DNA of 27,619 bases from positions 322,578-350,196 of the forward strand of contig NW_014577363.1 in assembly GCF_000485595.1 (NCBI RefSeq), in the 5' to 3' direction. Below are positions 4,181 through 25,350 of this stretch, one piece after another. The DNA comes from Priapulus caudatus (Eukaryota > Priapulida > Priapulimorpha > Priapulimorphida > Priapulidae). A program made the translations under genes and the position numbers. The notes below the pieces were generated by a model that saw only the letters and a list, made by a program, of their open reading frames with translations, was not told the DNA's origin and made no database searches. Every line of letters starts with the position of its first letter. Position 1 is the first letter of the stretch.

Positions 4181-4893
4181 GATAATAATCATATGTTCAC
4201 TCCCGATATAATCATATAAACAATCATTGCTTCAGTGTGCGTCAGGTCCGTGCCGCTACGTGCTGGTAACTAAGCTATAGCTGGGCAGTTTGCTGCCGTA
4301 TAAACCCGAGGTGGGGATGCTGCCACGTAAAGACCCTTGCCACAGTAGTAAGCGGTGACCATGCACTTCAACCTCGCTGTTAATACATCCGGCCTATTAA
4401 ATAGGGGACTGTGTTACATAGATGACTACTTTAATATTTGAAAATATATAATAAATTGTTGAACTAGAACCTACACATTTAGTGGGGCCTCATTTTAAAC
4501 ATGAAGCCATATGTCAGTACTGGGTACACGCTATTGGTCATCTATAACTATATATCTACCCAACTAACTTGAACTTTCATAATATAGTGGTTGGATTCAG
4601 TGTTTGTTAGCTCATACTGTAGCAGTGATGCAAAATGTTTCCTAGATGAAAATTTAAAGCCAGGTTGAAGTGATTCAAAGGCCAAGGTTATGCCCGCACG
4701 CGTGGTCACCGCCTACTACGCGTGGCGCGGATGGTCACGTGGGAGCAGTGTTCATAAGTTCGTGTTTATACGGCAGGCTCGCAGCAAACTGCCCAGCTAT
4801 CTCAGTTACCAGCACGTAGCGGCACGGACCTGACGCACACTGATGCAATGATTGTTTACACCACCAGGTACGTGCGTGAACATATGATTATGT
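4181..4893. repeat. Long inverted repeat pair, MITE-like or foldback
   Basis: The left arm is about 4181-4388. The right arm, about 4655-4893, is its reverse complement with scattered differences and indels. The best-conserved core contains CAGTGTGCGTCAGGTCCGTG followed by CCGCTACGTGCTGGTAACT; the left copy is near 4233-4271 and the right near 4808-4846. The outer ends share ATAATCATATGTTCAC. About 270 bases of unrelated AT-rich sequence separate the arms. No open frame for a transposase is present. A non-autonomous foldback or MITE, or two opposed copies of a short interspersed repeat, are the main readings. No convincing target duplication was seen. Confidence 0.75.
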
Positions 4894-4943
4894 CAAGAGT
4901 GAATCATAGATTATTACCTATTATTATTCACTCCTGATTATAT
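4887..4943. mobile_element. Palindromic mini-element 1 with flanking repeats
   Basis: The body at 4894-4936 begins CAAGAGTGAAT and ends ATTCACTCCTG, giving an 11-bp stem with one A-C mismatch at its third base and a 21-base AT-rich loop. The 7-mers outside are ATTATGT (4887-4893) and ATTATAT (4937-4943), matching at 6 of 7. It sits exactly at the outer end of the large inverted repeat's right arm. Confidence 0.6.
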
Positions 4944-5617
4944 TATGTTATATCCTTTATCAATTGACTTAAACACACAGTGTTTACAAATTATTCCTCT
5001 GTGTGTTAAATCCGAGTTGTTTAGTTATAATCATTAGTTAATTCAACTGTCAATTAACTGTGTGAACTGTGTGAAGTGGAGTAATTACTATAGAACACTA
5101 CATATACATAGTTTTTGGCCTTACAATTAACGCTCAGATAAAACGATGTGCGCAATTATTGTAAGCTTTGATAACATCTTTTAATATGGATGAATTAATT
5201 AGTTTGGTATTTTCGTTGTCTTTTCTTTCGCGCGTTTTTGACGTACATTAGTTCATCACATGTGTATGATGTGAATTATCCGTGTAGTTGCATGGTATAA
5301 TGTATGTTATCGTGAGCTATTGTATTTAATTCTAATTCAGTAACCTGCCGTTGGCAGGTCGGCGAAAGTTTGATAAATGTATAAGAAGTATAAATACCCC
5401 TAAAATAACTGTGATAAATAATAGAACATAACCATTAATTCAGCATAATCGTATCCCATGTTTGTATACGTATATAGTTTTTTTTACGTAACTGTGGAAA
5501 TGTCTTTTTCATTGCCAGAGTTGTTAGGTTAGTAAATTATTCCCACCTCCCATTCAACAACAATTGGCGCAGGATACGGCTCCGCTTTAAATTCTGTAGT
5601 CCTTAATCCTTATATAT
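4944..5617. other. Intergenic, minor dyad symmetries only
   Basis: AT-rich sequence without coding pattern. Small dyads such as ACACACAG/CTGTGTGT (about 4972-5007) and AGTTAATT/AATTAACT (about 5035-5060) are present but unremarkable. It ends in a short (TA)n run just before the palindrome array. Confidence 0.45.
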
Positions 5618-5783
5618 ATATTATCAGGAGCTAATAATGACAAATTTGTTATTATTAGCTCCTGATATTATCAAGAGCGTAGAAAGAAGTACCTTCTTAA
5701 TACGCTCTTGAGATTATCAACAGCTCATAATAAAGATTTATGAGCTCGATTATGTGCTTTCTATTATGAGCTCTTGACATTAT
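5618..5783. mobile_element. Tandem array of three palindromic mini-elements
   Basis: Element 2 (5625-5664) is a loopless palindrome, CAGGAGC...GCTCCTG, with one G-T pair. Element 3 (5672-5710) has a perfect 10-bp stem CAAGAGCGTA/TACGCTCTTG plus an inner AAGAAG/CTTCTT stem. Element 4 (5718-5776) has a 15-16-bp outer stem with one mismatch and an inner AGCTCATAA/TTATGAGCT dyad. Before, between and after them lie the 7-mers ATATTAT (5618), ATATTAT (5665), AGATTAT (5711) and ACATTAT (5777), so each element is bounded by near-identical 7-bp direct repeats shared with its neighbour. Confidence 0.7.
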
Positions 5784-5993
5784 GATACGTTTGGAATAAC
5801 GCATTATATGGGATGTTTTGAGCGTTCAGTCTAATAAGCGATTTGGTGAAACGACAATTTCAATACTGCCGACGCGGTTATTGTGATAACGCTGCGCAAG
5901 GAGTGCTACAAATCTCTGCACATGCTATAGCCTTGTATTCTTCCCAGATGAAGAGAAATAGGATCAAAAGCGCTCTTGTTTATTTGTCTACAG

Positions 5994-6766
5994 GTTACTA
6001 GCATGTGCCCTGCTATTATACCGTATGAATGCAGCGATAATGGATGTTCAGGCATCCGTAGAAAATGTAGCCGAGCTTGTCAACGGAGCTGAAGTGATAG
6101 GCAAAAGATCAGCATCACTGGATCGTGAGAATAACTTATAATAATTGTCGTGAAAATGCCAATGTATACAACGCCTAAACCATAGTCATGTTAACTATTA
6201 AGATGGCAATGTCCAGAAATAGCGCGTTTTCTAATAGTTTGAACACGTGAGCTTAAAATTACTATTTCGACTATAAGGACCTATGCATACACGATTTAAG
6301 CAGCACAATACAATTGAACGAAAAAATGCCGATGAACTGAAATGAAAATGGACTCGTTCAGATAATTGTTCCTGCAAAATTCGTTCTTCCTCGACTGTAT
6401 TTCGTGCGCTTCGTTATCTTGTTATTTACCGATGAAAGCGATATTTTATAGATGTGCTCACGAAGCGATTAAGCGCATTCAAACGGAGTGTGGATGAATC
6501 CATACGCGATCAGCTTTTGCTACACAAAAGAGCGGTGGGACATGCGGTAGATGATGAGACAGAAGCAGGAGGCCACAGCATAGCTAAAAGGGATGTGCCG
6601 CTGTCATTGTACAGAGATCAGAGAAGTTAGTGGTAGCATCGTGTAGTGTCGATAGATGTGCATCAAAGTATAACAGTGTAAATGAAACTTGTTAATCCAA
6701 ATTCAGTGGACGAATCCAGGAATTATGGGAGGAGTCCAGTGAAAGCGGATCGACTACCCTCCTCAG
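5994..6766 (+). other. N-terminal exons with repeated Lys-Arg sites
   Basis: Three exons in consistent phase: 5994-6124, 6452-6625 and 6707-6766, each leaving one base of a codon and joining to the EAR exon at 6962. Acceptors are CTACAG, TTATAG and ATTCAG; donors are GTGAGA, GTTAGT and GTTATA. The translation starts with a hydrophobic stretch (LLACALLLY). It then has Lys-Arg pairs in the contexts GKRSAS, TKRLSA, FKRSVD, HKRAVG and AKRDVP. Lys-Arg is the usual proprotein-convertase recognition pair, so a processed propeptide is plausible. These exons are too short to show as long open frames; the call rests on frame continuity and residue pattern. Confidence 0.6.
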
Positions 6767-9700
6767 GTTATATATTAACGAAATACGGTTGCAACCGAAT
6801 TGATTCTGACTATATTTCCTCGTTTCAATTACTTTATTTTATTTGAGTTTGAGTTTCCTACAATCAAACGTGTACTAGTACGTATGCTGTCAACGGTTTG
6901 CTACTGGCGTTGCAGCGTACGCGGGTGGGCAGCAAATACTAAAAACAAGGTCGTATTGTAGGTTACTTCCAGCTACACGCGATCACGGTGACTGAGACCA
7001 TGGCCGTCGCTAACATACACGACATAGCGCCGCTGAGTGGATTTGATGTTCCTTCCGATCAAGTCATCAATATAGGCAATAGCGACTTCTCTATTCATGG
7101 CTGCGTGTTGGAGAATCTAAGCAAGGTCCTGGTCGACGTTCACAGCAATGCTGATGACATCGAACCATTTTACATGTCGGGTCAGGCGTATGTCGCCGTA
7201 GCTAAGAACGGTAAGTTTAAACTGAATGATTGGAACACATTGATAATGCGTAAATTGCGTATCCTGATGAAACTTGTTACTTATCCTGAAACACGTCACT
7301 TGCACGGTATTTTCTAGATGGGACTGGATCACCAATATACACCCATGTTGATAACGAGTGGTTGCTGGTGCAGCGTCTTCGACAAGTAAAGGCATCACAG
7401 ATAAAGTCATTCATATTCCATGGTGTGACACATCTCGCCGTTGCGACATATGCTGCTGAAATCAACGGAGAGTTGGATGTAGAAGCTTACAGCTTCATAT
7501 ACCGGTGGGAAGGCAAGTTACTACGGGATGTAATTTGCTCATGCTGTGGATAGATACCAAGTATTTCTCATAACAACTAACATTTCTGTAATTCAAACGA
7601 AAATTCTGTATATGTAATGATTATTTAGGGATATATTGGCTCATGATTTCAGATTGGAAGAGTACAACTCGTTGTTTCACACTTTATCGTATTCTTTCAG
7701 ATGTTGCGTTTAACAGCGCCTACAGAGTGAAGACCAGCGGTGCGACAGACATCGAACCTTTTACGATCTATGACAAGCAATATTTGGCTGTTGCAAATTA
7801 TGTGGACGATGGAGGAAACGTAGCTATAGAGTCTGAGATCTTCGTCTATGAACCACATGAGCAGGATTTCACCAGCTTTCAGATGCTGCCGACTTACGCT
7901 GCCTCCGACATTGAATTCTTCCACGTGGAAATAAATGGGAAGAAGGAATTCTTCCTGGCCGTTGCTAATGAGATGGAAATAATTGGCGAGTTATAACATA
8001 TTCACCTTCACCTTTATTCTACAGTCCTTCTAAACGGGTCAAATTCATGTATTGTTCTTCAAGTGTTGACGAAATTAATACTATATATATATATCACTTT
8101 TCTTTACAGACGGAGTTGAAAGTCCGGCTACATCAGTAATTTACAAGTATGTGGATTACGTGTTCGTTCCATTCCAAGGCTTCAGTTTAACTAGGGCAGT
8201 GAAAGTTAAAGCTTTGCTAACTGACACTAACACTATTCTTCTGGCGTTTGCGGACCGGATCGAGGGCTTGAGACTGTACGAATATAATGGATGGAGATTC
8301 ACTTTGACCCAACAGCAGGTGTGTGTCGTTGTCACGATTCAGCGCGATGCTGTTACCTTCATGCCCATTACGTTTTGACTTGTAATTAAATATGCATCTT
8401 TTTTGCAGATAACGGCACCACCTACAAATACCCAACTGGTTAATATAGCCTTAATCCAGGCGTTTACGACAAGTGATACTGCGGAGCTTCACATTGCTGG
8501 CGTCTACAGAGATGTCACTCACAGTGGCGGTCTGTCACACACCTATAAATTGAACTTTAACAAGACTTCCCCGATTGAGGACATGTACGACGTCTATCAA
8601 ACAAGGTATATAGGCGTTACGTGGTTTGCATGTAATATTATATCGGGCGAACCGCTAGGTTTAATAAAACGTAACAGATAATAGCATGGGATCTTGTTTT
8701 TCTCAGGTGTGATACTTTGACGTCAAGGTGGGATACAATCAACTCGGCTTACAAGAACCTCGAAGGCGAATTTCATACTACGAATCTTGCACTGAGCACC
8801 GATGATCCCATAATTTTTACTGGCAGCCTGGCATTCCAAGGTATACTGATTGGTTACTGATAGCGATGTCACAAATCCACATACTTAAACCACAGACCCA
8901 TCTTAAGAAAAACCATTGCATACACTTGTTATAGTTTAGTTTCTTGCCAATTTCTTTAACAGGAGATATAGTGGTCAGCCCTGACAGTGTCGTGACTGCA
9001 CCCTTAATAGAATCCAACGTACTTCATTTCGACGAAAGCGAATTTGATACTTTCCCTGGCATGATGGAAGACATCGTTACCACAAATAGCAGTTTGGACG
9101 CAGTTAAAGCAGTCATAGATAGGAGCCTGCGAACTGATGGGACCACGCAAACTATCGCTGGTAAATAAATTACAATTTCTAACAATATTCATATTCACTG
9201 TCATTCTAAATCCTGAAGAACACCAGAGCAGAATATTACAATTGAATTTGTTTTCCTTGCTATTCTTTAGGTGCAGTGCAGTTTCAAGCTGTTAACGCGA
9301 ATGCAGGAGTTTCTGTGCAAGGTGACATTTATGCCCCAGCCATCAATACTAATGTTGACATCGAGCGTCTTAGTGAAATTGCTGTGTATGCTACAGGAGT
9401 TGAACAGCAGGTATGTTGTTGCTTTTAATTTTACTTCTCATTTTGCTGTGGAAATTATATAAAAACCATGTTATCTGCCTGTACACACTGGTGCATTCAT
9501 GATCGCAGGACTTCAACATGGACATGAACTTCAGCGATATCCAGTTTGACGCTGCTGTTACTGCCTCTGGAACACTGGACACTATTGCACAAGACAGAAT
9601 CGCATGGATCGATGGTTCAGTGATGAATATTACAGCAGATAAAATAATCCTAGCGGACCTCGACTTTGGTAATCTCAATTAAATTAATATTCAGTTCTAC

Positions 9701-12700
9701 CCTGGATATTCCAAGTGGGTCTTGATACTAGCATGCTTTGCTAAATTCACAACTTCATTTAAAATAAGGTAGATTTATGCAAGTTTCTGCATTGTATTGT
9801 AACGTGCATTGTAGGAGGTGGGCTCACAGTGGATGGAACTGTAGATAGTAGAATGATCTCTTCCAACGATATTCTGATGACCTCTGGAGAACAACACGTG
9901 ACCGGTAACTATGGATGGCATTCGCTCTTCGCTTTGTTTGCACATCGGACTTGAAAATTATTATATTTTATTAAATATTGTTATAACTTAATTATATATA
10001 AATAAATGATTATATTATTAATATATTTTAATATAGGTCAACTGGAATTTATTGACACCACCTTGACTGCTACTGCAATGACAGTTGACGGGACCGTTGA
10101 TGGTGTGAACGTCACCGACTTGATAACCGACGCAGTGTATTACAATGTCTCCACAACATTCACAGGTTGGCATAGAACTAATCCAAAGCACGAAGTAATT
10201 CATCCAGATAAGTAACTATGCACGAAATAGAAGATATATACAGAATATCAGATATATAGAATATATATCTATATATATATATATATGTGAAGACTAGACT
10301 CTATACAGAATAGAGCCGACCTCATATTGCGCTACTTTGCGCACATTTTCTAGGTTATAAAACATTTAGCAGTGCAGCGACGCTCACCAATCTTGAGGTT
10401 CCACTGCCAGGCCTGATAGATGGAGTTGACATCGTTGATCTTGACACGAGTGCTTTTCGTCTTGCTGGATCACAAACCATTACAGGTACAACAATTACGT
10501 TGCATGTTCCTGATTTCATTTTGAATTGCAGGCATATTTTTTGGTGATCTTTTTTGGTATCATTTGAGTGGCATCTTTTGGAATGTTCCAGCATCCATGG
10601 GCTTCAGTGACATCGACCTGGATTCAGGTTTAACCTTGGCAAGTGGTTACACCCTAGCCGGTCTTGATCCAGCACACGTTGTATTGTTAAACTCAACCCT
10701 GCAAACCATAACTGGCGCAAAGACTTTCAACGCATCCCAGCAATTTGGTGTGCTTAACATGGTGGCTGGGAAGTCTATCGATGGCATCGATATCCTTGAC
10801 ACTAACAGTAAGTATACGTTTTCAATATACATATGGAAACAATTGTGATATGCCTCCTCAACGATGCAACAGTTGCATATTTTTGTTTTTCTTTCATTTT
10901 CCTGTAGAACCAGACCTTCTGCTGTCCGGTGAAGCTCAGTCCGTTTCTGGAAGCAAGACATTCTCTAGTGACCTTCATATTGGCAGTTCGACAGCAGGAA
11001 CTATCAACGACGTAAATCTTCAACAAATGAGCAGCTCTGCTCTTAAAACAGTCGGCAACCAGATAATCCCAGGTGCGTGCACGCGTTTTCCTATTAGTTA
11101 TAGTTATCTGATTATCAGGAAGCAGTCCATAAGGTTAGCAGTGCTACAAAACCGTGACTTTTAACCAAACATACTAGCAAAACTAACGTAACGATTTAAC
11201 ACAAGATCGATTTAACTTTTTTTTAACGATTTGACATAAGATATATAGCCAAGCATGAGCGGACATAACGATTTTGTTGTTTTATACAGGAGAGAAGACC
11301 TTTAGTAATGTGACATTCAGTTCCCCAATCACTGTTGGTGGCAAGGTTGATGATGTTAGCCTGTCGTTGTGGTCGAGTACCTCCATTTCTCTAAGTTCGA
11401 CCAGCATCAGTGTTGCACTCACATTTACTCAGGACATGCTGACGGTAAGTTCGTTATATAAAGACCAGCTACCAGCAAATTTTGCTGCCACTCTTGGTTA
11501 ATTCTCCGTCACTGGTAATCCTTGTGAAATAACGTTGATACAATCTTTACTTCACAGGTGGCTGGAAATCTTCAAGTGACGGGAGACGTGAACGGTGCTA
11601 CCGTGCCCCAAAGCTTCCTAAGGACTATGTCGCACGTTGACACCCAAGTGTCCGGTCTGAAGAACTTCACCAATGGTGTCCGGTTGGACAACAATCTCAT
11701 GGTTACTGGAACTGTCGGTGACATAGATCTGTCACAATTCGTCGCAGATTCACTTCTAAAGGACACGGCAATGGTAAATGCACCCATTTGTCTTCTGTAA
11801 TTATGTTTTGGAATTACTTTTTGATGATACAGTAATACCACATTTTTTAAGAATGGATAGTTTCATTAAACGCATTTCTCACTCCAGGTTGTTATGGGAA
11901 AAAAGACATTCACTTCAGAGAGTACCACATTCGGCAACTTGACGGTCACTGGGGCGGTCAACGCCTTGACCATGCCATCACACGTGGTGCAGCTATCCAC
12001 AAACGAGTTTCTCCCAAGTGCATTCGTCTTCAACGACATGGTTGCAGAAGCAGGCGTGACCGTCAGCACATTGACTCTCGGTGGTCTGCTAAACGGAGAG
12101 GACCCAATGACCTTGAAAACTGACACGTTATACCAGAGTCCTTCTATTGGTGAGCTTGAGCTATGACATATCAACATCATCATCTGCAGGACATATTTGT
12201 GGATCTCGGCTATAGGCGCAAATTAATGTCTTCTGCTTTTTACAGCTGGCTCCTCGCAAACAGTGACTGGAGCGAAGGTTATCAGACATGACCTGCAGTT
12301 CCAGGGTACCATCACATGTGATCTAGTTGATGGTGTAAACCTTAGTTTGCTAGAAGCAGACGCTGTGTTTAACAATCAAGCTTCAACGGTCACTGGTGAG
12401 AAAATCTTTAGCGACACGACTACCATCGAATCTTGGACATCCACAGGTAAGTGTTTAACATAGTAGCACTCAGCACTGCATGGTAATTACAATACATTAT
12501 TTTATATACGGCGTTCTCGCTGTTATTTATTAATATACCTATATCAATATATAATATAATATAATTGTATTATATATAATGCTTTATATATAATATAAAT
12601 GCCAATGTTTATAGTGAAGATTCCCCTCGTTAATTAGGTCTTGTTGATGGTGAAAACATCACTGAGTGGGATACTAGGATCATGCAGCAGGGTAGAACAC

Positions 12701-15700
12701 AGACTGTAACTGCAGCAACCACGTTTGAACATGTCACCGCTCCCAACGTGGTCACAGCTGATGGCACGATAAATGGTGTCGATGCCCGAGTCCTGAATGC
12801 GGAAGCTGTGAGACTGACAGGTATGTGTGTGTCCATCGCGAGCGATGATGGCCACTGACACCCCTTAAGGTTGGTTTCATCTGTTGTGCTTCCGTAGATG
12901 GCTAATGAGGCCTATCCGAGCACTGCTGAACAGTCTCCCACAAGATGGGCAGGTGTGATGAGAAGTTTCAGAGGTAACACCGCTGGTTGCACACTCTTTT
13001 CGTAGGCGTCACTTTTCCTCTGCATCAGCTTTACGTTTCTCTGCAGCCTGTGTGGCTCCCAGACTAATGAGCCAACGCCAAGTTGGGCGATCTTGGGCGG
13101 TTTGCTCCCATGTTGCTGTGTTGATATGCTATAAAGGACTTCAGCGCGTGCCAGAACTCAGTTCGCCATACAACAACTGTTTGGGTATGCGATTATCAGG
13201 CATTCTACTGACGTGGCCTGCCCATCTAGTCTGGTGTTTTTTCAGCAGGGTATGAATTGAGGGCAACTTAGCAGAGGTGAGGACTTCTGTGTCCGGGATC
13301 TTGTGATTTTGACAGGTAACTGTAATGATGAACACGCGGTAGATTGCGGTGGGGTGATCAAAATTATGCATTGTTTTTGTTTTTTTTAGGTGGTTCCATT
13401 ATTTATGGCCCAGTTACATTCCTTAACCTGACTGCCACGGATGTCACACTAGCTGCATCTAAAACTGTCGATACCGTTGACCTGAGTGAGGAGAACGTTG
13501 ATACCACAATTGCTGTGAGTATTCTGTAATGTTTTTTCGAAATTATTCCCATAAGTATTCCAGTAATGCAATTAGTACTACTTCCGTCTCGTTTTATACG
13601 ACGATAACCTATAGCTTTACACAATGTCATTTGCCAGGTTACCATCACCGGATTAAAAACCTTCACTGCAAATCAGACCGTGGGAAACCTCACAGTAACT
13701 GGATATGTGGATGGAGTGAACATTGCTCAGCTCTACGAGGATGCGGCTAGAACACAGGGCGCCACATTATCAGCGCATACACTCTTCACTGGTAAGAATT
13801 TGCTTATGTAGTCCATAAATCTTTGCTAATCTTGGATGGTTAGCTAAAGGTAATTAACATCTATGCTAAAGGTAAATATTTGCTTACGAAGTCTATAAAT
13901 CTTGGTAATCTTGGATGGTTAGCTAAAGGTAATGCTAAAGGTAAATATATAGGCTTCTATTATACAACTTCCAGGTGGAGTAGACTTTCAGGATGTCTTG
14001 ATAACGAGTTTGCTGGGAACAGTGGACATAGTCAACGTGAACAGCCGTGTTGTGAGAAAGACAGATATTGATCAGATACTGAGTGGCTTTTATTTCTTGT
14101 CCAATGCCAACTACACTGGGGTGAGTGAGATTAATTCATAGTGAAATCAAAATAATAGAATCTTTGAAAGAGATTTGCAGTATTTACTGATATATCTGAT
14201 ATACTGATATAATGATATCTATGCAGGACATTACAGTGAATGGCTTGATCGATGATGTGAGAGTAGAGACGTTGAATTCCACCTACGTGAGTGTGACTCA
14301 ATCACAGAACATTGAAGGAGTCGTCACATTCACTGATGTCATTGCTGAATATCTCAATCTAGGCACTCTCGGTGTTGGAGGTATAGTCCTAATTGAGCTC
14401 ACAGCTACATTATATATTTAGATGTAATTAATTTTAGATGATGTATATTGTCATCTTGCTGCCAAAATTATGAAAGGCCATGGCTACAAACGATACCTGT
14501 TAACAGTGCCTTTCAATAAATTTTGCTTGCAGGTCTTGTGGATGGTGTGAACATCACAGATTTCGACATGACTGTGATGAGAATTGTAGGTGATCAAACC
14601 ATAACTGGCAGTCATACGTATACAGGTCCCACAGTTCTTGAAGGTAATTAGCTTAATGAAATTATATCTTGTGTATAATGTATTCTATCATTTGTTTGGT
14701 GGTCGTTTTGCACTCACCAACTGGTTACTTGTATGTTATAGCTGACCTGGTGGTAGGTGGCCTCGTGGATGGGGTAGATGTGGCCAACAATACTGCGCAA
14801 CATGGGGCGGACAACGTCTTCACTGGCACGAAAACATTTAGCCACACAGATGGCTTCAATGCGGCAGGAAATGTGACATTTGACGATGGTATGTTAGTTC
14901 GTCAAAGATGGTTAGATTGACAAACATTGATGCATCTCTAATGATTCTATTGATTAATGCAGATAAGTGACAGCAAATAAGTCTGTGGTATGGTTGCAGG
15001 AAAAACTATGCACGGTGTTGATGTGTCACAGTGGGCAGATGATGGAGTAAATATGAACGTGGATACGGCCATAGGAGGCGCCAAGACCTTCACTGCTGAT
15101 ACTGTCACATTCAGTAATAATATACAGTAAGTGTGCACCTATAACCCACAAAGCTCCTCGTAAAAGTCTTTCTTGGTTATGACCATTTCAGTTGTTCAAT
15201 TTATACCATTTCATTCCAGAGCGGATGACATCGTAGATGGTTATATGGTAGATGCAGCCACCTTGTTAATGCTGTCAGGCGATCAAGATATCACAGGCTT
15301 GTATACATTCTCCACTCTGGTGACGGCTACAGAACTCCAGGTTTGTTGATATACGATTAAAGATTGTTGATAGGATTCAAAACAAAGCAAAGCAAAGTTT
15401 CTAGATGTAACTGATGTCCTTTGTTTATTTGCACAGGTAGCGGGCACCGTTGATGGCATGAATGTAACTTATGTCGGAGAGATGGCCCTGCTAAGCAACA
15501 AGAACGGCACTCTGCAGACATTGCTAGAAGAAGTGACGTTCAGCAGCGCACCACTGTTCAACAATATACAGATTAATGGACTACTAAATGGTGTTGACAT
15601 CACAAGTGATGTCCAAATGATCCTGTACGCATGTACACAATTTAATTTCCTCAATCAAATTCACGTAACCACAACAGTGGCCACGCTTTGTGTTTTCTCA

Positions 15701-18700
15701 TGTTTAACTTTGGTCTCACCGGGTCTGACTTGATGCGTACACAGGAATGACTCACAAGTGTTGTTTTTCCTCGTACAGGGAGGATTACAACCTGTCCTCC
15801 ATTATAGACAGCCTCAACAATCAGTGCGAAGCCTTGGAGGACATGTCGGGAGCGCTGAATGGTGAGAACAGCAACGCCCTCTGGTTCACGATTGCGTGCG
15901 TGCGCGTGCCTGCACGTGTGCGTGCGTGTGTGTGTGTGCGTGCGTGCATGCGTGTGCGTGCGTGCGTGTGCGTGCGTGTGTGGAGGGGGATGTCATCACA
16001 GGTAGACTGTGGCCACCGCACGTCAGTAATGATAGGAGACTCACTCGGAGACTGACGCGGAGACGAGGCTCTCCTAGTTTATTACCACTAGCCCCATTAT
16101 TCATCCTATAGTTACTAATAACTAATTACTGTTGTCACCTCTATTCGGAATGTCTACGAGGACTAATAATGTCGGCAATAATCCAGTCGTCATTTATTAT
16201 CTTGCTCTTATTTATCTAGCAATCTACTATCTCTATGCTATACAATAGGTTTCGCAACGCGATATGTTTTTCGAATTTATATTTTCCTCTCGCAGAATCT
16301 GGCAGGATCATCAGCTTTGTACGAGGGTTCTCCAGCTATGCGGACACGCTGCGTAGCTTCACACCATTCGTAATGAACGGAGAGCACTACGTCGCAATGT
16401 CCGTCAAGAGCATCGACTGTGTGGATTCGAATATTCTAAAGTACAACAACATTAACGACAGCTTCGAAATATTCAGCGTAAGTGTATACTGTGTAGAGTC
16501 GAATATTCTAAAGTACAATACGACTAACGACAGCTTAGAAATATTTGGCGTAAGTATATGTGGAGTGGAGCATTTAAAGTACAACACGACTAACGACAGC
16601 TTCGAAATATTCAGCGTAAGTGTATGCTTCTTGGTGTAACGTTGTGTAAGTATGATGTAACGTTAGGGCGCCTGTGTAACGAAGGGCTGCATAATGATAT
16701 AATTAATGATATAATATAATAATTATATGATCTCATCGCAGTCTATACCAGCCGTCGGAGCGGAAGTCATGGACCATTTTGAGTTCGAAGACAATCACTA
16801 TCTCGCCGTCACTTTTGCTGCACTATACAACGACTCCCTCCCTTGCTATACCAAACGGAGCGCATTCGGTGGTGAGTGTGCATGCGAATTCGAAACGTGC
16901 TTCAGCAACGAATGTAGTTTGACTCCCCACGCCTTGTTTTATTACTGTATAATTTTAAATTTTATTTTTAGGCGATGCTGCCGTGTCGTATGTCCAGGTG
17001 TATAAATACAATGCCGACACATTAACATTTAACCTGTGGCAGAGTCTGGCTGCTACCATGCCTCTTGGTCTGAAGGCATTCCCATGGAATGGCAAGCAGG
17101 TGCGAATGACGCTCATTGACACCTGTTGAATGTGCTATAAGAATCAAATAATATATGATATAAAATAATGATATGAAATAAATATAATATGAATGGGATA
17201 AGAGGAGTTTACGATGTGCTGAGAGTAGTTGCAAATAATTATTTATAATCATTCACACTGGCCGTATGTTAACTCCTTTTAATTAATTATAAATGAGATC
17301 ATGAATGAATGTGCATTTCAGTGCTTGGCTGTTGCCAATAACTTCAATCCAATTAATGGGAGTATGGTCATTCCCTCTCGACTATACTGCATGACAGATG
17401 AAGCTGGAAAGTTCAACGAAACGTGGGATCTTGAAACCTATGGCGCGGTTAAGGTATGTTAAACAACCATTCGCATGTGTAGGTAAGGTAAAACAAATGG
17501 TAGATTCACCAAGTATTTGTCATCTTCATAAAACATTTGAAAAAAGAACCATATTGTGTCGACACGCTTAACCATTTAAATGGTTGAGAAAGGTCGTCTG
17601 CTGTCATTATAATTGCTTGATTGTGAACAAAACTACTTCAGGTGGATGCAACATCTATCGATGGAATACTACATATCGCATTTGCAAACAAGTATCACTC
17701 GAGCGTGGGCTACCAGACGCACAGCATTGTGTACTACTGGAACAACATAAACGACACTTTTGACGTAAGTATAATTGGCGTACCGACTTGGAATGCTAAC
17801 GTGGGTGAGTTGCGTGAGATGATGCAGTTTACAGGCGTCGCTAAACGGTTTTTGAAGTTGGGGTGCTCAATTTGTTACGATCCAGTAGAGCGATTTTGTG
17901 ATAGCGCCTGTGCACACGCGCGCTCTCTCTCGATCTCTCATTTAATTTTGTGGCGTCAAAAAAGTTTGGATGCTCGAGCCCCCTTAGGCCCCCCCCCCGT
18001 TCCGCGGGCACTGCAGTAGGCTTACATGCATGGCTTTGGAAGAGAGATGAGTTTCGTGTTTACCATCCCTGTAGGATTACCAGCTACCGACGATCAGCTG
18101 TGTGGACGCAGTGTTTGTTACGACAGCCACTGGTGTGTTACTGGTGCTCGCCAACTCCCAGGCTGCCAGCACTGGCGTGACCGCAAACACGGATGTCTAC
18201 GAGTACGTACCTCTACAACTAGATCACATGCCCAGTAGGGAGAGTTAGTAGACAAAATGCCTGTTATGGCGTATGTAGGTATATGCCAGGATGTTACATG
18301 ATAACAAGAGTCTATCAATGTCTATCTATCGATCGAGTCTATCAAGTCTATTGATAGACTCCTGATGATAATAATACCGGGTGTCCAGTATGGAGTCCAG
18401 CAGAAGAACTAAACCTATTTTATTGTAAAATTTATTTGCAGATATAATGGAAATTTGCCATTTCCATTTGTGCTGAAGCAGGCAATAGATATTCCTAGCA
18501 CTGTGGACGTGGAAGCGGTAAGCTAACCCTGTTGCTATGCGCTAACGTGAATACAGTTGTCATTCGCTTAACAAAAGTGTTGCAGAGATATGTTATAATA
18601 TGATTTGGAAACCAGTGTTTTCTCTAATTTTCAGGCAACCTTAATGGATGGAGAGATATACATGTTTGCAGTGAATGGGGATTTTGATCAGAGTATCCAA

Positions 18701-19180
18701 GTGTACAAGCTTGGTGGTTCATCGTACTTCCTCCCAAATATGCAGCTGAGTGTCAACTACAGTAAGTTCAAGTTGTAATCTTAAAGACCGTTTTTTATTC
18801 GGACAATTCTGTTTTCACTACACATGCCGATCGACATTCAAAATGGTAAACATGACATTTTATACATTCAGAGTGTGTCGGAGTGTCTGTATTCACGATC
18901 CCAGACGTTGCTAGCTTCATCGCCGTGGCAGTAGACGGAGACTTCAACGATAACATCTTCGTTACTGGGAGCTCGGACTTTCTGAAGGTTGAAACTAAAG
19001 GTACATATTAGCATAATTTTAGTGGAGATGTTGGAGTAATGTACAGCTTGGTCAACGAGCATGGTTATCAGTATTATGCATCGATATTGTTGTTTTCTAG
19101 GCAAGCCTATACCATCTACTTCATGCGATGCTCACAATCTTTTGGATCTTCTGGAACTACTGCCCAACAACGGATTTTAG
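5994..19180 (+). CDS. Large EAR-repeat/solenoid protein, 5' exon missing
   Basis: I joined 42 exons by splice signals and phase; coordinates are in the four domain entries that follow. Coding length is 6,520 bases, which closes exactly in frame on the TAG at 19178-19180, giving about 2,172 residues. Order: Lys-Arg-rich N-terminus (about residues 1-121), seven EAR repeats (122-515), about 26 TGxKTF/VDGV modules (516-1760), seven EAR repeats (1761-2172). EAR repeats, known from LGI, TSPEAR and ADGRV1 proteins, fold as a seven-bladed beta-propeller used in extracellular protein contacts. An extracellular structural or adhesive role is therefore inferred. The first exon, presumably carrying the start and the front of a signal peptide, was not found. 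The first visible segment reads LLACALLLYRM, like the end of a signal peptide. The precise family is not recognised. Confidence 0.85.
6962..8605 (+). other. N-terminal EAR propeller, seven repeats
   Basis: Exons 6962-7210, 7318-7512, 7653-7985, 8110-8318 and 8409-8605. Seven EAR repeats can be read from their core strands: ETMAVAN, DDIEPFYMSGQAYVAVAKN, IKSFIFHGVTHLAVATY, ATDIEPFTIYDKQYLAVANY, SDIEFFHVEINGKKEFFLAVA, NTILLAFADR and AELHIAGVY. Seven is the blade number of known EAR propellers. The introns after 7512 and 7985 appear to use GC donors (GCAAGT, GCGAGT); no GT donor nearby keeps the frame. Repeats 1, 6 and 7 are diverged. An open frame starting with GTG at 6988 is not the real start, because the frame extends upstream to the acceptor at 6961. 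Confidence 0.8.
12877..13340 (-). pseudogene. LINE retrotransposon 3' fragment in an intron
   Basis: It lies antisense inside the intron 12821-13389 of the EAR gene. Minus-strand translation gives TRWAGHVSRMPDNRIPKQLL followed by YGEL, the well-known C-terminal motif of non-LTR endonuclease/reverse-transcriptase proteins. After a frameshift near 13141 come WEQTAQDRPTWR and a terminal C2H2-like finger with CPSCGRLF and HLRKH, then a stop at 12877-12879. Only the C-terminal end is present, with at least one frameshift and an internal stop, so it is a 5'-truncated, dead copy. The clade is uncertain. Confidence 0.8.
13799..13950. repeat. Tandem duplication within an intron
   Basis: Two copies of a roughly 65-85-base segment share TTTGCTTA..AGTC.ATAAATCTT and GGATGGTTAGCTAAAGGTAA. 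The first starts just inside the donor at 13792 and the second at about 13880. The copied segment includes donor-like GGTAAA. It lies between exons ending at 13791 and starting at 13975 and does not alter the coding frame. Confidence 0.7.
15895..15985. repeat. GT/GC microsatellite in an intron
   Basis: GCGTGCGTGTGTGTGTG-type repeat with alternating purine/pyrimidine, inside the intron 15862-16295. Cys/Val/Arg open frames over it are artefacts. Confidence 0.9.
16417..16621 (+). repeat. Triplicated exon end with splice donor
   Basis: Three head-to-tail copies of the end of the EAR exon begin at about 16417, 16489 and 16558. Each contains AAGTACAA and AACGACAGCTT and ends with GTAAGT, at 16478, 16550 and 16616. 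Donor spacings are 72 and 66 bases, both multiples of three, and the frame stays open through all three copies to a stop at about 16637-16639. All three donors are in the same phase (0) and can join the exon at 16742. Confidence 0.8.
18298..18371. mobile_element. Palindromic mini-element 5 with 7-bp repeats
   Basis: The body at 18305-18364 starts CAAGAGTCTATCAAT and ends ATTGATAGACTCCTG, a 15-bp stem with one A-C mismatch at its third base around a 30-base loop. It is flanked by exact 7-bp direct repeats ATGATAA at 18298-18304 and 18365-18371. It lies in the intron 18203-18441 of the EAR gene. Confidence 0.7.
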
Positions 19181-19203
19181 TATTATTGATTTTGTGATAA
19201 AAT

Positions 19204-19774
19204 TTTAGTACTTACTTACCAGTTATTTTTATGTTTAGTATTTAAGCCTATGGTAACTACAAATATCTGAAAAAAAAATTATTTGAGATTATAGTAACGA
19301 AAGCATTCTGTTAGCAGCTAAAGTGTATTACCATAATTTATTTATATTAGCAGCTAAAATGTATTTCCATAATTTATTTATATTAGCAGCTAAAAAGTAT
19401 TACCATAATTGATTTATATTAGCAGCTAAAATGTATTACCATAATTTATTTACACTACTAACTAAGAGTATAATTGTGATTTTAGTACTATACTTACCAG
19501 TTATTTTTATGTTTAGTATTTAAGCCTATGGTAACTGCAAATATCCGAAGAAAAAAATTGAGATTATAGTAACTAAAGCATTAGCAAAAAATTATTTATT
19601 CATGTTAGCAGCTAAAATGTATTACCATAATTTATTTATATTGGCAGCTAAAATGTATTACCATAATTGATTCATATTAGCAGCTAAAATGTATTACCAT
19701 AATTGATTCATATTAGCAGCTAAAAAGTATTACCATAATTTATTTACACTACTAACTAAAAGTATAATTGTGAT
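19204..19774. repeat. Duplicated block holding a minisatellite
   Basis: Two copies of a block (about 19204-19480 and 19481-19774) start TTTAGTACT, continue CCAGTTATTTTTATGTTTAG and end CTACTAACTAA..AGTATAATTGTGAT. Each contains four units of a roughly 35-base minisatellite with TTAGCAGCTAAAATGTATTA and CCATAATTTATTTA. The block starts 24 bases after the EAR gene's stop codon, so it may lie in the 3' untranslated region. Confidence 0.85.
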
Positions 19775-20095
19775 AAATTGATTATATATTTTTGCATTAA
19801 TTGTTATGTTTACATTCAATTAAACACGTTTTACTAAATCAAAATGGTGTTACTGCTTACTTCATATTGTCCCTGTTATCACAGAGTGAATACTTTTTAT
19901 TACTCATGTCAAGACTGCCTCAGTGGTTAGCTGAGATATATCTCCCATCCTAAGTGAACCCACACTCCTACAGACAACATTGAGCAACTGGTAATTGAAA
20001 CTTGCTAACGATGTAATGACGTGGAAATGTAATAATGTATAAAATAGAAATTTTACAATATTTTTACTATTTTTTTTTTATTAATTACACAATTA
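19775..20095. other. AT-rich spacer, no feature seen
   Basis: Unique-looking sequence between two repeat blocks, with T and A runs near 20070. No gene, RNA or repeat is supported. Confidence 0.45.
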
Positions 20096-20850
20096 TTTAC
20101 AATATTGGTTAGTACAATTAAATTATAAAAATCGTACTGCTGCAAGTAGGACAATTAATATGGCGCTCTATACACGAGTAGGACGCAATTAATATGCCGC
20201 TATATACAATTAAATTATAAAAATCGCACTGATGCAAGTGGGACAATTAATATGCCTCTATATATACGAGTATGACAATTAATATGCCGCTATATAGGCC
20301 TATAATTAAATTATGAAAATCGCACTGATGCAAGTAGGAAAATTAATATGCCGCTATGTATACGAGTAGGACAATTAATATGCCGCTATATATACGAGTA
20401 GGCCAATTATTATGCCGCTATATATACAAGTATGGTAATTAATATGCCGTTATATATACGAGTATGACAATTAATATACCGCTATATATACGAGTAGGAC
20501 AATTAATATGCCGCTATATATACGAGTAGGACAATTAATATGCCGCTATATATACGAGTAGGACAATTAATATACCGCTATATATACGAGTAGGACAATT
20601 AATATGCCGCTATATATACGAGTAGGACCCAATTAATATGCCGCTATATATACGAGTAGGACAATTAATATGCCGCTATATATACGAGTAGGACAATTAA
20701 TATGCCGCTATATATACGAGTAGGACAATTAATATGCCGCTATATATAACGAGTAGGAAAATTAATGATGGCCGGCTATTTATACGAGTAGGAACACATT
20801 TAATAAGCCCGCTATATATAATAGGACAGAATGGGCCGCTATATACAATT
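20096..20850. repeat. 32-bp satellite array
   Basis: Head-to-tail units with AGGACAATTAATATGCCGCT then ATATATACGAGT, period 32 bases. They are very regular between about 20370 and 20750 and eroded at both ends. At the left, units alternate with a longer variant containing AATTAAATTATAAAAATCG and ACTGATGCAAGT. About twenty units are visible. Short frames across it are artefacts. Confidence 0.9.
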
Positions 20851-20929
20851 AGGACAATTATCTTACTCTTACCGATATATGCGCAAACCCGCCACGCACC
20901 CGCCTGTGCACAAACAACAAGATAATAGT

Positions 20930-21000
20930 CTTTTCGTCTTCTATTACTATTCTTCTTCTATTCGCATTCTTCTTCTTCTTTTACTCTATTATTCTTGTTG
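20930..21000. repeat. CTT-rich pyrimidine tract
   Basis: TTCTTCTTCT-type tract with interruptions on the plus strand. It is simple sequence only. Confidence 0.7.
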
Positions 21001-21117
21001 TTTATGCACAAGCGGCGTGCGGACGGTGGCGGTGTACTATGTGGTGTTGCAGATGGCGCATTTGAAGCGCATTTACTCAGGCAGTTTTGTCGCATAAAGG
21101 CGAAACGAGTATGTATG

Positions 21118-21174
21118 TATGTATCAGGAGCGTATAATGACAAATATTTGTCATTATACGCTCCTGGTATGTAT
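21118..21174. mobile_element. Palindromic mini-element 6 in a GTAT repeat
   Basis: A perfect, loopless 42-base palindrome at 21125-21166 starts CAGGAGCGTATAATGAC and ends with its reverse complement. It interrupts a (GTAT)n microsatellite, with GTATGTAT immediately on both sides. Its arms resemble element 2 at 5625-5664, with matched differences in both arms. Confidence 0.75.
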
Positions 21175-21533
21175 GTATGACTGGAAACCTTTAAATCGGT
21201 ATTTCACTACAAAAAAAAAAGAAAAAAAAGAGAGAAGAATTTCGTATCCCCTTATAGATTTGTGAGTGCAGCTGATCTAGCTCCCCAAAGTATCTCCAGG
21301 TACTGTGTTAGTAAGCTAAATATAAGTAATAAGGACTGCGCTGCTACCCTAACCCCAGGAGAGTTTTAGAGAGGGCTCCTCCTGCATGTCTGTGAGGTTC
21401 TGTTGCCTCAATGTTTCTACGTTTTTAATCATATTTATTAAAAAAACTATGTTTCATAACAGGGACATCTCTAGTAAAATAGTGCTGCCAGGGTCTGCCA
21501 ACTTCCTCTCCCACAAATTAAGCATTTATCTAT
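21175..21533. other. Non-coding stretch, A-rich tract
   Basis: An A/G-rich run lies at about 21210-21238, followed by unique sequence. Minus-strand translation may be the tail of the retroelement remains to the right, but no motif was readable. Confidence 0.35.
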
Positions 21534-22980
21534 TCACTCTGCCCGCATGTCTAGTGCGTTATTTCTAGTGGCAAGCACGGGGAAATGGAGAGCGTGCGGG
21601 CAGCGCCGCTGCTTTGAAATGAGCAGTAGGCTACTTTCCAAGTCTATTATCATAAAAGGACTCGTTACCAGGCGCCTTTTTCCTTTATACAATCCTAGCG
21701 AATCTTGGTTTTCTATCCTTTTTTCCATTCGTAGTACGTACACTCTGTTTAATTGGCTCTTATCCACTCTAACATTTCCATTCTTATAGCCCCCCGTTAA
21801 CTCTTTGTCTTGACTCCTGATCCGAGTCAAAGCTTTGTTATGAGGAACTAGTTCTCCTCTCCAAAGTCTGAATCTGAATTCGCCCATTCCATTGCTTCCG
21901 CCTATCCTGTTTACTTACGTTACTATTTCATTATTTTATCCTGCCCCAATATTTAATTTACTTTTTTGGCTCTCTCTCTCAAAAGTTGACCATCCCGCAT
22001 CTCCGCCTCTAATACTCTCCATCCCCATAGAGAGGTGACCCCTAGTAAACATCCCTTCCCAGCTGGTTTAATCCTGTTCTAGTGCCGGTAGGAGCAGTGA
22101 CAGTTCCTAGCCTGGTTTATCTTAAATAACTAGGCTTCATTTGTATACGCTCAGTGGCCAGGCACTGTGCAATTGGCTTGCAAAAGCTCCTACCCACCCA
22201 ATATCTATTGAAAGCTATAAGAATATACTTTCGAAGGCTATGCTCCCCTGTATTCTTCTTGGCTTTTTTTCCGTAGTAATCATCCTCATGCTGTTGTAAG
22301 CAGTTTTATCGAAATTGTCACTAGATGCTTTACCAGGTAAACTTGTTTCAGATACTGTTGCTGCAGAATTCATTGCTTTCAGTGTTTTATAGACCCCTGT
22401 GGCTCATCTATCGCGCTTATTTGAGAATACTGAATTTCGGAGATTTCTGTTTTCTCGCAAAAACCATTCGAAAATTTTCTGCAGAAGTACCTGCGGCAAT
22501 GCTCAAAATACTTTCCATTTTATAACTGCTATGTCTCTGCTAGGCAGGAACGCACATCATTGCGCGATATAACTCCCGCAAGCTATTTACCTCAGATGCA
22601 ACAAATCCATTATGGCCTGGGTTACGAAGGGCCTAGTAGATAATTCTTGATAAACAATGCCCGAACCAGGATGGTGATAACAAGGCAAAGCCCTGCTTCA
22701 AACTAGCATTAGATGCTAATTCCCAATCCGATTCCCAAAAAACAAATCCGTATACTTATCGTTTGATTCATTGTTTTAGTAAGTAAGACTCCACCAGTTT
22801 CACCAACCCATTACAAACTATTGCTTTTTAGATCGATCCCTAGATAATTTATCTCGCTATCCACCAAGTATAACTTTGTTGAAGTCCAAAGGAATTTAAG
22901 GTTTAATGGTTTTCCATTACATGTGTTACGACACCTGCTGAAGCATTGGGTTAATTTATGAGATACTAAGTCCACGCATG
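21534..22980 (-). pseudogene. Probable degenerate LINE remains
   Basis: Minus-strand frames, all interrupted, carry fragments resembling the distal part of a non-LTR reverse transcriptase. Near 22800-22920 there is NGKPLNL followed by SEINYLGI, like the residue pattern after the catalytic YxDD region. At 21534-21887 an uninterrupted frame reads FRLWRGELVPHNKALTRIRS and then CPHALHFPVL, resembling element C-termini. No catalytic motif is legible. Orientation and order agree with the clearer fragment at 24893-25257, suggesting one element broken by the CA-rich array. The family assignment is tentative. Confidence 0.4.
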
Positions 22981-22989
22981 CACAGTCAT

Positions 22990-24870
22990 AAGGTGGTGCA
23001 GAACGTTCTGCTTACACATACACACACACACAACACCACCCATCACACACACACACACACGCAACACACCACATACACACCAACACACAACACACAACAC
23101 ATACACACACATGCAAACACCACACACAACAATCGCGCGCACACACCCACCAGGGCAGCGCGCGCGGTGCATAAACACACACCACACCACACCACACCAC
23201 ACCACACATACACACACACACACACACGCATAGACAAACACAAACCACATCCACACACCGCGCGCGCGCATAAACACAGCCCACACAAGCAGCATACACA
23301 AACACAAACACATACAACACACGCGCCGCCGCCGCATAAACACACACCACCACGCATACACAAACACATACACTACACGCCATCACACTAGACGCTACAC
23401 GCACCACAGCACACACACACACGCACGCACTGGCACGGGAGAGATAAGGGTGCGGTTCACGCACACACACACAGCGAGCACAGGCGCAACCCAGGACCAC
23501 TACAACACACACACCCCAAACACACAACGCGCGGGCTGCACACACACACATGGCGAGTCGAAGAGGACACCGCGAGCGCGGGCGCATTAAACACACACAC
23601 AGCGACACACACCACACACACAGCACAACACACACACACACACACACACGAACACCCATACAACACACAGCACACGCTAAACACAATAAACACGCGCGTC
23701 GCGCATAAAACACACACCACCACCACATACGCGGGGTGTTTTACAACCATGTACCAACGCGGCAGAGAAGAGACTGACAGAAGGCAAAAGCGTTTGAGAC
23801 ATACTACACGCGCACATAGAACACACACACATAGACAGCACACAACACCCATACACGACACGCACTGCACAGGCACTACAGCACCACGACAGCGGCAGTG
23901 AACACACACACACATACACAACACCACACAACACACAAGGAAATTACACACAGCAGCAGACCCACACACACGACACACCGACATAAGACACAAACAGCAA
24001 AGAAAAAAAGAAAAAGAGTAAAGAAGAAATAAAAGAAGAACACATCCACACACACGGCCGCCGCCGCATATAACACACACCACGCATACACAAACACAAA
24101 ACACAATACACAGCCGACCGCCACACACGGCCGGCACGTAGAGCGCAATAAACACAAGAGGAGACACATCACACACGCATCACACAAAGCACATACACTG
24201 ACACGCACACCCGACGCTACCGCACACACAGGACACACACAACCCACGTCATCGCCAGCACGAGGCACCGGACGACACCGCAACACCAGCAACACACACG
24301 AACACACACGGCACACATCAGGAGCACACAACGCGCGCGCGACACACGCCACAACGCGGCGCGCTGATGCATAAACACGCACAACCACACACCACACCAC
24401 AGCACACGGTACACACGCATGAAACGGACAAGCTAATCCACACGCGCGCGCGCATAAAGCACACACCTACACAGCACATATTCATCGACGCATACACTAC
24501 AGCCGCGCCACATCAGACCACAGGACACCATAAGACACACACCACACATACACTACAACCGACTCGACACGCGTACACACACACAGCACAGCCTCAGAAG
24601 TACCACACACACACACAACACACAGCGACACAGCACACAGCAACACACACAGACACACACGTTCACACACAACACACCCCGCAGCACACAGAACACCACA
24701 CACGCCACCCACACAAACACACACACACGCACCCACTACACACACCACAGCACACACTACATACAACACACAGCAGGCCACACACACCACAACACCACAA
24801 CACACACACACACACAAAGAAAAACACAGCACAGCACGACCAACACACGACACATCACACACAACAGACA
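22990..24870. repeat. Complex CA-rich array with GC-block motif
   Basis: About 1.9 kb of degenerate (CA)n in which alternating GC blocks recur. They are usually followed by the same string, GCGC then GCATAAACACAC, near 23160, 23265, 23330, 23585, 23700, 24060, 24365 and 24450. Long minus-strand frames (up to 239 residues) encode Val/Cys/Arg low-complexity sequence and are not credible proteins. Alternating CA and CG tracts are prone to Z-form DNA. The array separates two minus-strand retroelement fragments. Confidence 0.85.
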
Positions 24871-24892
24871 ATAGGAATATAATTATCTCGGC

Positions 24893-25257
24893 CGGCACCG
24901 GATGCCTCGCTGACACGCATTCTGTGAACCTCTCCCAACAATACTTTGAGTCTTCCTACAATTTTTCCAGTCGATCTCTAATAAATTCCCATAAATAACT
25001 GTACTCACGTTGCTATCGTTAACGGCAATCGTCTTGTAGTTTTGGCAAGAAAGCTGGAGTCATCGCAAGTTTTTACCCTTATAGACTAATGATACTTTTG
25101 ATTTCTTCCATGAATCTGGGAACTCCAGTGACTGTAGAATTTTATTAAAGAGGACCGTTAGTGCTTTGACTAGGAATTTCCTCCAAACTTTAGAAATTCA
25201 TTTGGTACCTCGTCTTACTTAGCTTAATTCTAAGCCGCACCTCCTCTACCGTTATTC
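24893..25257 (-). pseudogene. LINE reverse transcriptase fragment, frameshifted
   Basis: Minus-strand translation in three frames reads, in order: ITVEEVRLRIKLSKT, EVPNEFLKFGGNS, LVKALTVLFNKILQSLEFPD with SWKKSKVSLVYKGK, then NYKTIAVND. This is the N-terminal fingers region of a non-LTR reverse transcriptase (FP..WK...hhhhYKGK...NY+.Ihh). At least three frameshifts or stops interrupt it. Coding similarity fades at about 24893, where the CA-rich array begins. The catalytic palm is absent. It is a dead CR1/Jockey-like copy; the clade is inferred only. Confidence 0.75.
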
Positions 25258-25298
25258 TACTTAACAAAGTATTTCTACTATCTATATGAGGGCTATAG

Positions 25299-25350
25299 CC
25301 TATATCAAGAGTAGATAAATAACATGTTATTTATCTACTCTTGCCTATAT
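25299..25350. mobile_element. Palindromic mini-element 7 with 7-bp repeats
   Basis: A perfect loopless 38-base palindrome at 25306-25343 starts CAAGAGTAGATAAATAACA. Exact direct repeats CCTATAT lie at 25299-25305 and 25344-25350. It is the cleanest copy of the family. Confidence 0.75.

Follow-up and report, generated by a model that had tools for sequence, protein, structure and literature searches.

Dispersed short palindromes in the Priapulus caudatus genome as probable excision scars of P-superfamily transposons

Introduction

A stretch of 27,619 nucleotides from a nuclear-type contig of the priapulid Priapulus caudatus (NW_014577363.1, positions 322,578 to 350,196; hereafter the window) holds seven short palindromes that share their outer ends, CARGAG...CTCYTG, and are bordered by identical or nearly identical words of seven or eight bases. 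What are these palindromes? A reading made earlier from the sequence alone (the sequence-only reading) took them for a family of miniature palindromic elements and the bordering words for target-site duplications.

The question can be put more sharply: is each palindrome an element that moves, or what remains where an element has left? We conclude that the palindromes are most likely scars, left by the excision of cut-and-paste P-superfamily transposons similar to Galileo. We prefer scars to elements because the arms of the palindromes end about 20 nt into the ends of larger elements, and because independent loci do not have their longer centres in common. The sequence-only reading fares unevenly: its target-site duplications stand, and its miniature-element family is, for these two reasons, probably wrong.

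Results

Abundance and target repeats

The pattern CARGAG-N(26-50)-CTCYTG matches the genome assembly (385 Mb in 2952 contigs) at 5315 places; the reversed pattern, used as a control, matches at 587. Among the 50 matches listed, 38 are palindromic at 10 or more of their first 12 positions. The R of the hexamer is the same base in both arms of every one of the 38, and of 8 among the other 12. If this sample is typical, there are roughly four thousand copies with exact hexamers in this length range, and thousands of scars seem to be scattered across the genome.

Are the flanking repeats real? Palindromes were called in the window and in L001-L088, loci read from the genome, giving 80 calls, or 78 after two overlapping ones were dropped. 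Forty of the loci were chosen from the pattern and half-stem listings, mostly for exact arms of 17-18 nt on both sides, a choice that leaves short arms under-represented; one of the forty, L088, yielded no call. Six of the window's palindromes are among the 78; the copy at 5718 falls outside, as the finder demands exact hexamers. The sequence-only reading had proposed that the 7-mers on the two sides be compared with randomized controls, and on the loci read this comparison bears out target-site duplication. Exact 7-bp repeats flank 40 of the 80 calls and exact 8-bp repeats 14, against means of 1.6 and 1.3 (maxima 7 and 6) when the right flanks were permuted in 2000 rounds. With the overlapping calls removed, 54 of 78 palindromes carry an exact direct repeat of 7 or 8 bp. 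The duplicated 7-mers follow the motif nTnnnAn: of the 40, 39 have T as their second base and 38 have A as their sixth. A duplication of 7-8 bp with a palindromic target motif is what the P superfamily would leave. The predominance of 7 bp departs from the 8-bp duplication that marks hAT elements. Terminal inverted repeats with target duplications are also found in miniature inverted-repeat transposable elements (MITEs). In one locus, L008, two palindromes are nested, and the inner one, of 35 bp, has an ATAATAT repeat of its own.

Longer elements with the same ends

Two stem families could be followed to longer elements. The half-stem of family A, CAGGAGTAGATAATAGGG, occurs 629 + 594 times in the genome and, among the matches listed, its ends lie in pairs about 40 bp apart and also in convergent pairs about 0.4-1.4 kb apart. 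Ten family A places were examined. Seven hold long elements of 398-1326 bp (L026-L032) and two hold short ones, of 90 bp (L033) and 77 bp (L034); the tenth, L025, was considered as a 1.4-kb element and rejected, as it consists of two separate short palindromes. An exact 7- or 8-bp repeat flanks six of the seven long elements directly, and the seventh, L029, only after seven extra bases. At L029 (499-515) the right end of the element is followed by TCTCCTG and then by the target repeat, perhaps a trace of repair. The inverted arms match across most of the first 100 nt in five of the seven (L027, L028, L030-L032), across about 74 nt in L026 and, in register, across about 27 nt in L029.

Family B, with half-stem CAAGAGCTAATAATACC and 542 + 526 ends in the genome, gave seven long elements of 356-3149 bp (L035-L041), all with exact 7-bp repeats. 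Thirteen of the 14 long elements of the two families thus bear an exact flanking repeat of 7 or 8 bp; most are about 0.7-0.8 kb long. At one site insertion can be seen by comparison: the filled site L028 differs from a diverged repeat unit in L011 by the element plus the 8-bp ATATATAT.

The arms end near 20 nt

How much of a long element does a palindrome retain? In family B, 1068 ends match over 17 nt, and 250 of them reach nt 22 of the long elements. In family A, 1223 ends match at 18 nt against 291 at nt 22, the latter figure counting one of two A variants. Among 100 listed 22-nt ends of each family, family B forms 21 nearby convergent pairs, the closest 356 bp apart, and family A forms 22, the closest 398 bp apart. 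The 17-nt ends of family B behave differently: 100 listed matches include 15 convergent pairs of 36-120 bp and 5 of 356-786 bp.

Arm lengths agree with this. They come from 41 palindrome calls of the two families, of which two overlap and two (L073 and L083) have misplaced right ends. Of 40 retained family A arms, 21 are 20 nt long and 12 are 19 nt, the longest being 21 nt; of 42 family B arms, 29 are 18-19 nt and the longest is 20 nt. The exact limit is blurred by chance agreement of one or two bases. On what was read, then, the short palindromes retain at most about 20 nt of each end of the long elements. Such a limit may reflect a strand cut well inside the inverted repeat.

Centres are particular to each locus

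The 43 centres of at least 8 nt are 43 distinct strings. Those of L011, L049 and L050 are near-identical, and these loci also resemble one another in their flanks and lack a target repeat; their palindrome (4714-4771 in L011, with a relative in L051) is probably part of some larger repeat. No other pair of the 903 compared falls below 25% edit distance. The shared internal sequence of a MITE is thus missing, apart from this three-locus repeat and two short joins considered below.

Where do the centres come from? The 39 fillers of at least 10 nt contain 947 six-letter words, and 170 of these recur in the arms of the same scar. Shuffled fillers gave a mean of 47.6 (maximum 78 in 300 rounds), and arms swapped between loci a mean of 76.4 (maximum 122). 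Copying of fillers from the break ends is characteristic of theta-type end joining, and the excess over both maxima fits it. By eye, the window copy at 5718-5776 has imperfect arm copies in its centre, and that at 18305-18364 has repeated GTCTATC words that its arms also contain; repetition of the arms is more striking in L069, L072 and L083 than in the latter.

A candidate transposase

The P-type transposase domain PF21787 matches 64 places in the genome and none of 14 control genomes. At L042 an open frame of 826 amino acids has five P/THAP9 domains, including the helix-turn-helix, RNase H, GTP-binding and THAP9 C-terminal ones. A protein search with it returned 526 relatives. Few of the 120 listed carry an organism name: a sea spider, a gorgonian and a tick each contribute a protein named THAP9, a limpet a hypothetical protein and a hagfish a THAP-type one. 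The search shows the L042 transposase to be P/THAP9-like. Two other P-type transposase copies, L044 and L045, are about 95% identical and differ by an internal inversion in one of them.

P-superfamily inverted ends are expected to start with CA, and those described here do (CARGAG). The criterion is a weak one, as CA starts also occur in other transposon superfamilies. That a P-type transposase acts on the CARGAG ends is what we infer.

The palindromes of the window and their surroundings

All seven palindromes of the window (Table 1) lie where the sequence-only reading had placed them and have the ends it described, down to the CAACAG of the 5718 copy. Its flanking words are likewise confirmed, exact at 5625, 18305 and 25306 and matching at six of seven positions at 4894, 5672 and 5718. 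For the copy at 21125, in a GTAT microsatellite, it had claimed the same sequence on both sides: an 8-bp repeat fits and a 7-bp one does not. The four junction words of the cluster at 5625, 5672 and 5718 are ATATTAT, ATATTAT, AGATTAT and ACATTAT. Three scars in tandem fit repeated insertion, because each insertion would regenerate the target for the next.

Table 1. Palindromes of the window (positions in the window; span includes the flanking repeats)
Scar	Palindrome	Span	Strand	Features
1	4894-4936	4887..4943	.	left ATTATGT, right ATTATAT, 6/7
2	5625-5664	5618..5671	.	40 nt, 20+20, one mismatch; ATATTAT exact on both sides
3	5672-5710	5665..5717	.	left ATATTAT, in common with scar 2; right AGATTAT, 6/7
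4	5718-5776	5711..5783	.	left end CAACAG; flanks AGATTAT/ACATTAT, 6/7
5	18305-18364	18298..18371	.	ATGATAA exact on both sides
6	21125-21166	21117..21174	.	42 nt; 8-bp repeat GTATGTAT within GTAT microsatellite
7	25306-25343	25299..25350	.	38 nt, perfect, centre CATG; CCTATAT exact on both sides

The window has no Rfam match and no tRNA found by ARAGORN. Its open frame at 7643-7996 matches the EPTP domain and probably represents one exon of a larger gene; five further frames were scanned and have no Pfam match. By eye, positions 20140-20860 form a long minisatellite with units like CGAGTAGGACAATTAATATGCCGCTATATATA. About 1.9 kb of CA-rich low-complexity sequence (23010-24870) contains long reading frames on both strands, which are probably spurious. 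Locus L010 (443-548) has a palindromic repeat of another kind, with CAGGGGCGTGTAC...GTACACGCCCCTG as its ends, which may be a further MITE.

Discussion

How would an excised transposon leave a palindrome? We propose four steps. An element with CARGAG...CTCYTG ends inserts and duplicates 7, sometimes 8, bp of an nTnnnAn target, as the flanks of both scars and long elements show. Transposase would then cut one strand at the element tip and the other about 18-20 nt inside, to judge from the arm limit. Both target copies would stay at the donor site, each extended by a 3' tail of some 20 nt from the tip of the element. These identical tails would be joined by error-prone, theta-type end joining, as the centres suggest, either through short self-complementary matches or after scraps of the tails have been copied into filler. 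The product would read target copy, arm, filler, inverted arm, target copy: a palindrome of 30-120 bp. Different stems would correspond to different transposon families, and the tandem scars to repeated insertion into a regenerated target copy followed by excision. The parts of this scheme that we infer are the P-type nature of the cutting transposase, the role of polymerase theta and the independence of excision at each locus; the target repeats, the ends in common with long elements, the arm limit and the templated, locus-particular centres are observed.

The model has a precedent. P transposase of Drosophila cuts 17 nt inside its ends (PMC7776569), and the donor ends retain 17-nt 3' tails, which start with CATGATG (PMC2895639). 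We take the palindromes for natural excision scars because their form is that of the short-overlap and filler classes in a table of fly junctions (PMC2895639, Table 1).

Several observations weigh against excision scars. Long elements have been linked to two stem families only, A and B, and all seven window scars fall outside these. Among the loci read, no locus is both occupied and scarred, and there is no pair of element and scar alleles. As scored, 24 of the 78 palindromes lack an exact repeat; they include the four L011/L049-L051 loci, several six-of-seven cases, and L073 and L083, where the finder chose an inner right end and the outer end restores the repeat. One centre does recur, at L011, L049 and L050, on a CARGAG-ended palindrome, with the similar flanks and missing target repeat described above. 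Two family A joins, of 40 and 39 nt, recur as whole sequences at four loci each; a mobile mini-element would give the same, and blunt joins are rare in the fly table, which has one isolate (PMC2895639). The same table has 20 isolates of long-microhomology joins that lose most of the tails (PMC2895639), and scars of that kind would escape the present search. Among the matches listed, 58 of 100 family B and 56 of 100 family A 22-nt ends have no nearby exact partner and may hide palindromes with one long arm. The tail lengths implied by the two families also differ slightly, 20 nt for A and 18-19 nt for B. Lastly, in the seven places read of the 64 with a transposase match (L042-L048, stretches of 4-5 kb), no CARGAG ends surround the transposase, a check that did not take in the interior of one 3.1-kb candidate element.

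Could the palindromes move by themselves? A minimal MITE would be a self-sufficient non-autonomous element made of two inverted ends and mobilised in trans by transposase. Exact target repeats, symmetric stems and the two identical sequences with four loci each are all as this would have them. A multiplying element would, however, spread one centre, and so the unshared centres weigh against it: no two of at least 8 nt are alike save in the one repeat with similar flanks. Nor would random deletion have to stop where the arms do, about 20 nt into the long elements; it could stop anywhere. Moreover, in an element of 36-40 nt, cuts 17-20 nt from either end would probably leave little or no double-stranded DNA to move. 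We have rejected mobile mini-elements on the unshared centres and the arm limit, and consider minimal MITEs unlikely. A third possibility is that the palindromes are internal-deletion derivatives, in which gap repair of a long element was interrupted and the remnant stayed in place. The ends and target repeats would then be those of the long elements, as they are, and incomplete repair synthesis is known to follow P excision (PMC2895639). Arms of varied length would be expected from such a process, but no convergent 22-nt pair is closer than 356 bp (B) or 398 bp (A) among 200 listed of 541 ends. We regard this explanation as very improbable.

The scars might also be those of another superfamily, such as hAT. 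The nTnnnAn target with its occasional 8-bp copies resembles the hAT preference, nTnnnnAn. The usual hAT duplication is 8 bp, though, and hAT footprints are a few bases long; in the present palindromes 7 bp is the dominant length and some 20 nt of either end is kept. A hAT origin therefore seems to us distinctly improbable.

What follows if the palindromes are excision scars? We think it rather probable that the genome holds some four thousand or more natural P-superfamily scars, apparently outnumbering the intact ends of the two traced families, each an independent germline record of theta-type joining of identical tails of about 20 nt, and that this P-type transposase cuts with a stagger of 18-20 nt against the fly's 17. 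The titles and abstract openings of the literature searched, outside which most subscription journals fall, mention no natural genome-wide P-excision scars. Dispersed palindromes that would otherwise be annotated as tiny MITEs or unknown repeats would become a readable archive. Each scar would reveal the former position of a transposon, its family, and the way in which a single germline break of known ends was mended. For a non-model animal, sequence by itself would then suffice to measure the transposase stagger, the rules by which templated filler is made, and how often excision occurs relative to retention. A caution also follows: what looks like a very short 'MITE' with a unique centre may be a footprint.

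Which known systems do the palindromes resemble? Like MITEs, they are present in many copies, have inverted repeats and target duplications and lack coding capacity; unlike MITEs, they are 30-120 bp long and have no common internal sequence, the centre being particular to each locus. The sequence-only reading had named mitochondrial hairpin elements as the nearest idea. The repetitive hairpin elements of sponge mitochondria, as far as the passages cited here describe them (PMC2800124), are likewise short dispersed hairpins, but the palindromes lie in a nuclear-type genome and have transposon-like target repeats. With a nuclear-type contig and an EPTP-encoding stretch alongside, the mitochondrial comparison is not needed.

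Galileo, a member of the P superfamily in Drosophila, is also comparable. It has the target consensus GTANTAC and long, foldback-like inverted repeats, and in D. willistoni its duplications are of 7 bp, with three 8-bp cases and the consensus GTATTAC (PMC4168063). The elements described here share with it the 7-bp duplications with rarer 8-bp ones and the long inverted repeats, and GTANTAC is compatible with nTnnnAn; end sequences stand outside the comparison. The passages on Galileo drawn on here mention no short palindromic scars, in contrast to what we describe (PMC4168063).

The palindromes also resemble P excision junctions in Rad51-deficient Drosophila. As tabulated, these begin and end with the target repeat; inside it lie remnants of the two element ends, each of up to 17 nt, with a filler or a short overlap between them (PMC2895639, Table 1). 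Both kinds of junction thus have the target repeat on either side, remnants of inverted ends, and a join by short microhomology or templated filler. The fly junctions, in the parts of that paper used here, were made in the laboratory at one locus, with an 8-bp repeat and 17-nt tails (PMC2895639); the palindromes of Priapulus are natural, number thousands by extrapolation, have mostly 7-bp repeats and retain arms of up to about 20 nt.

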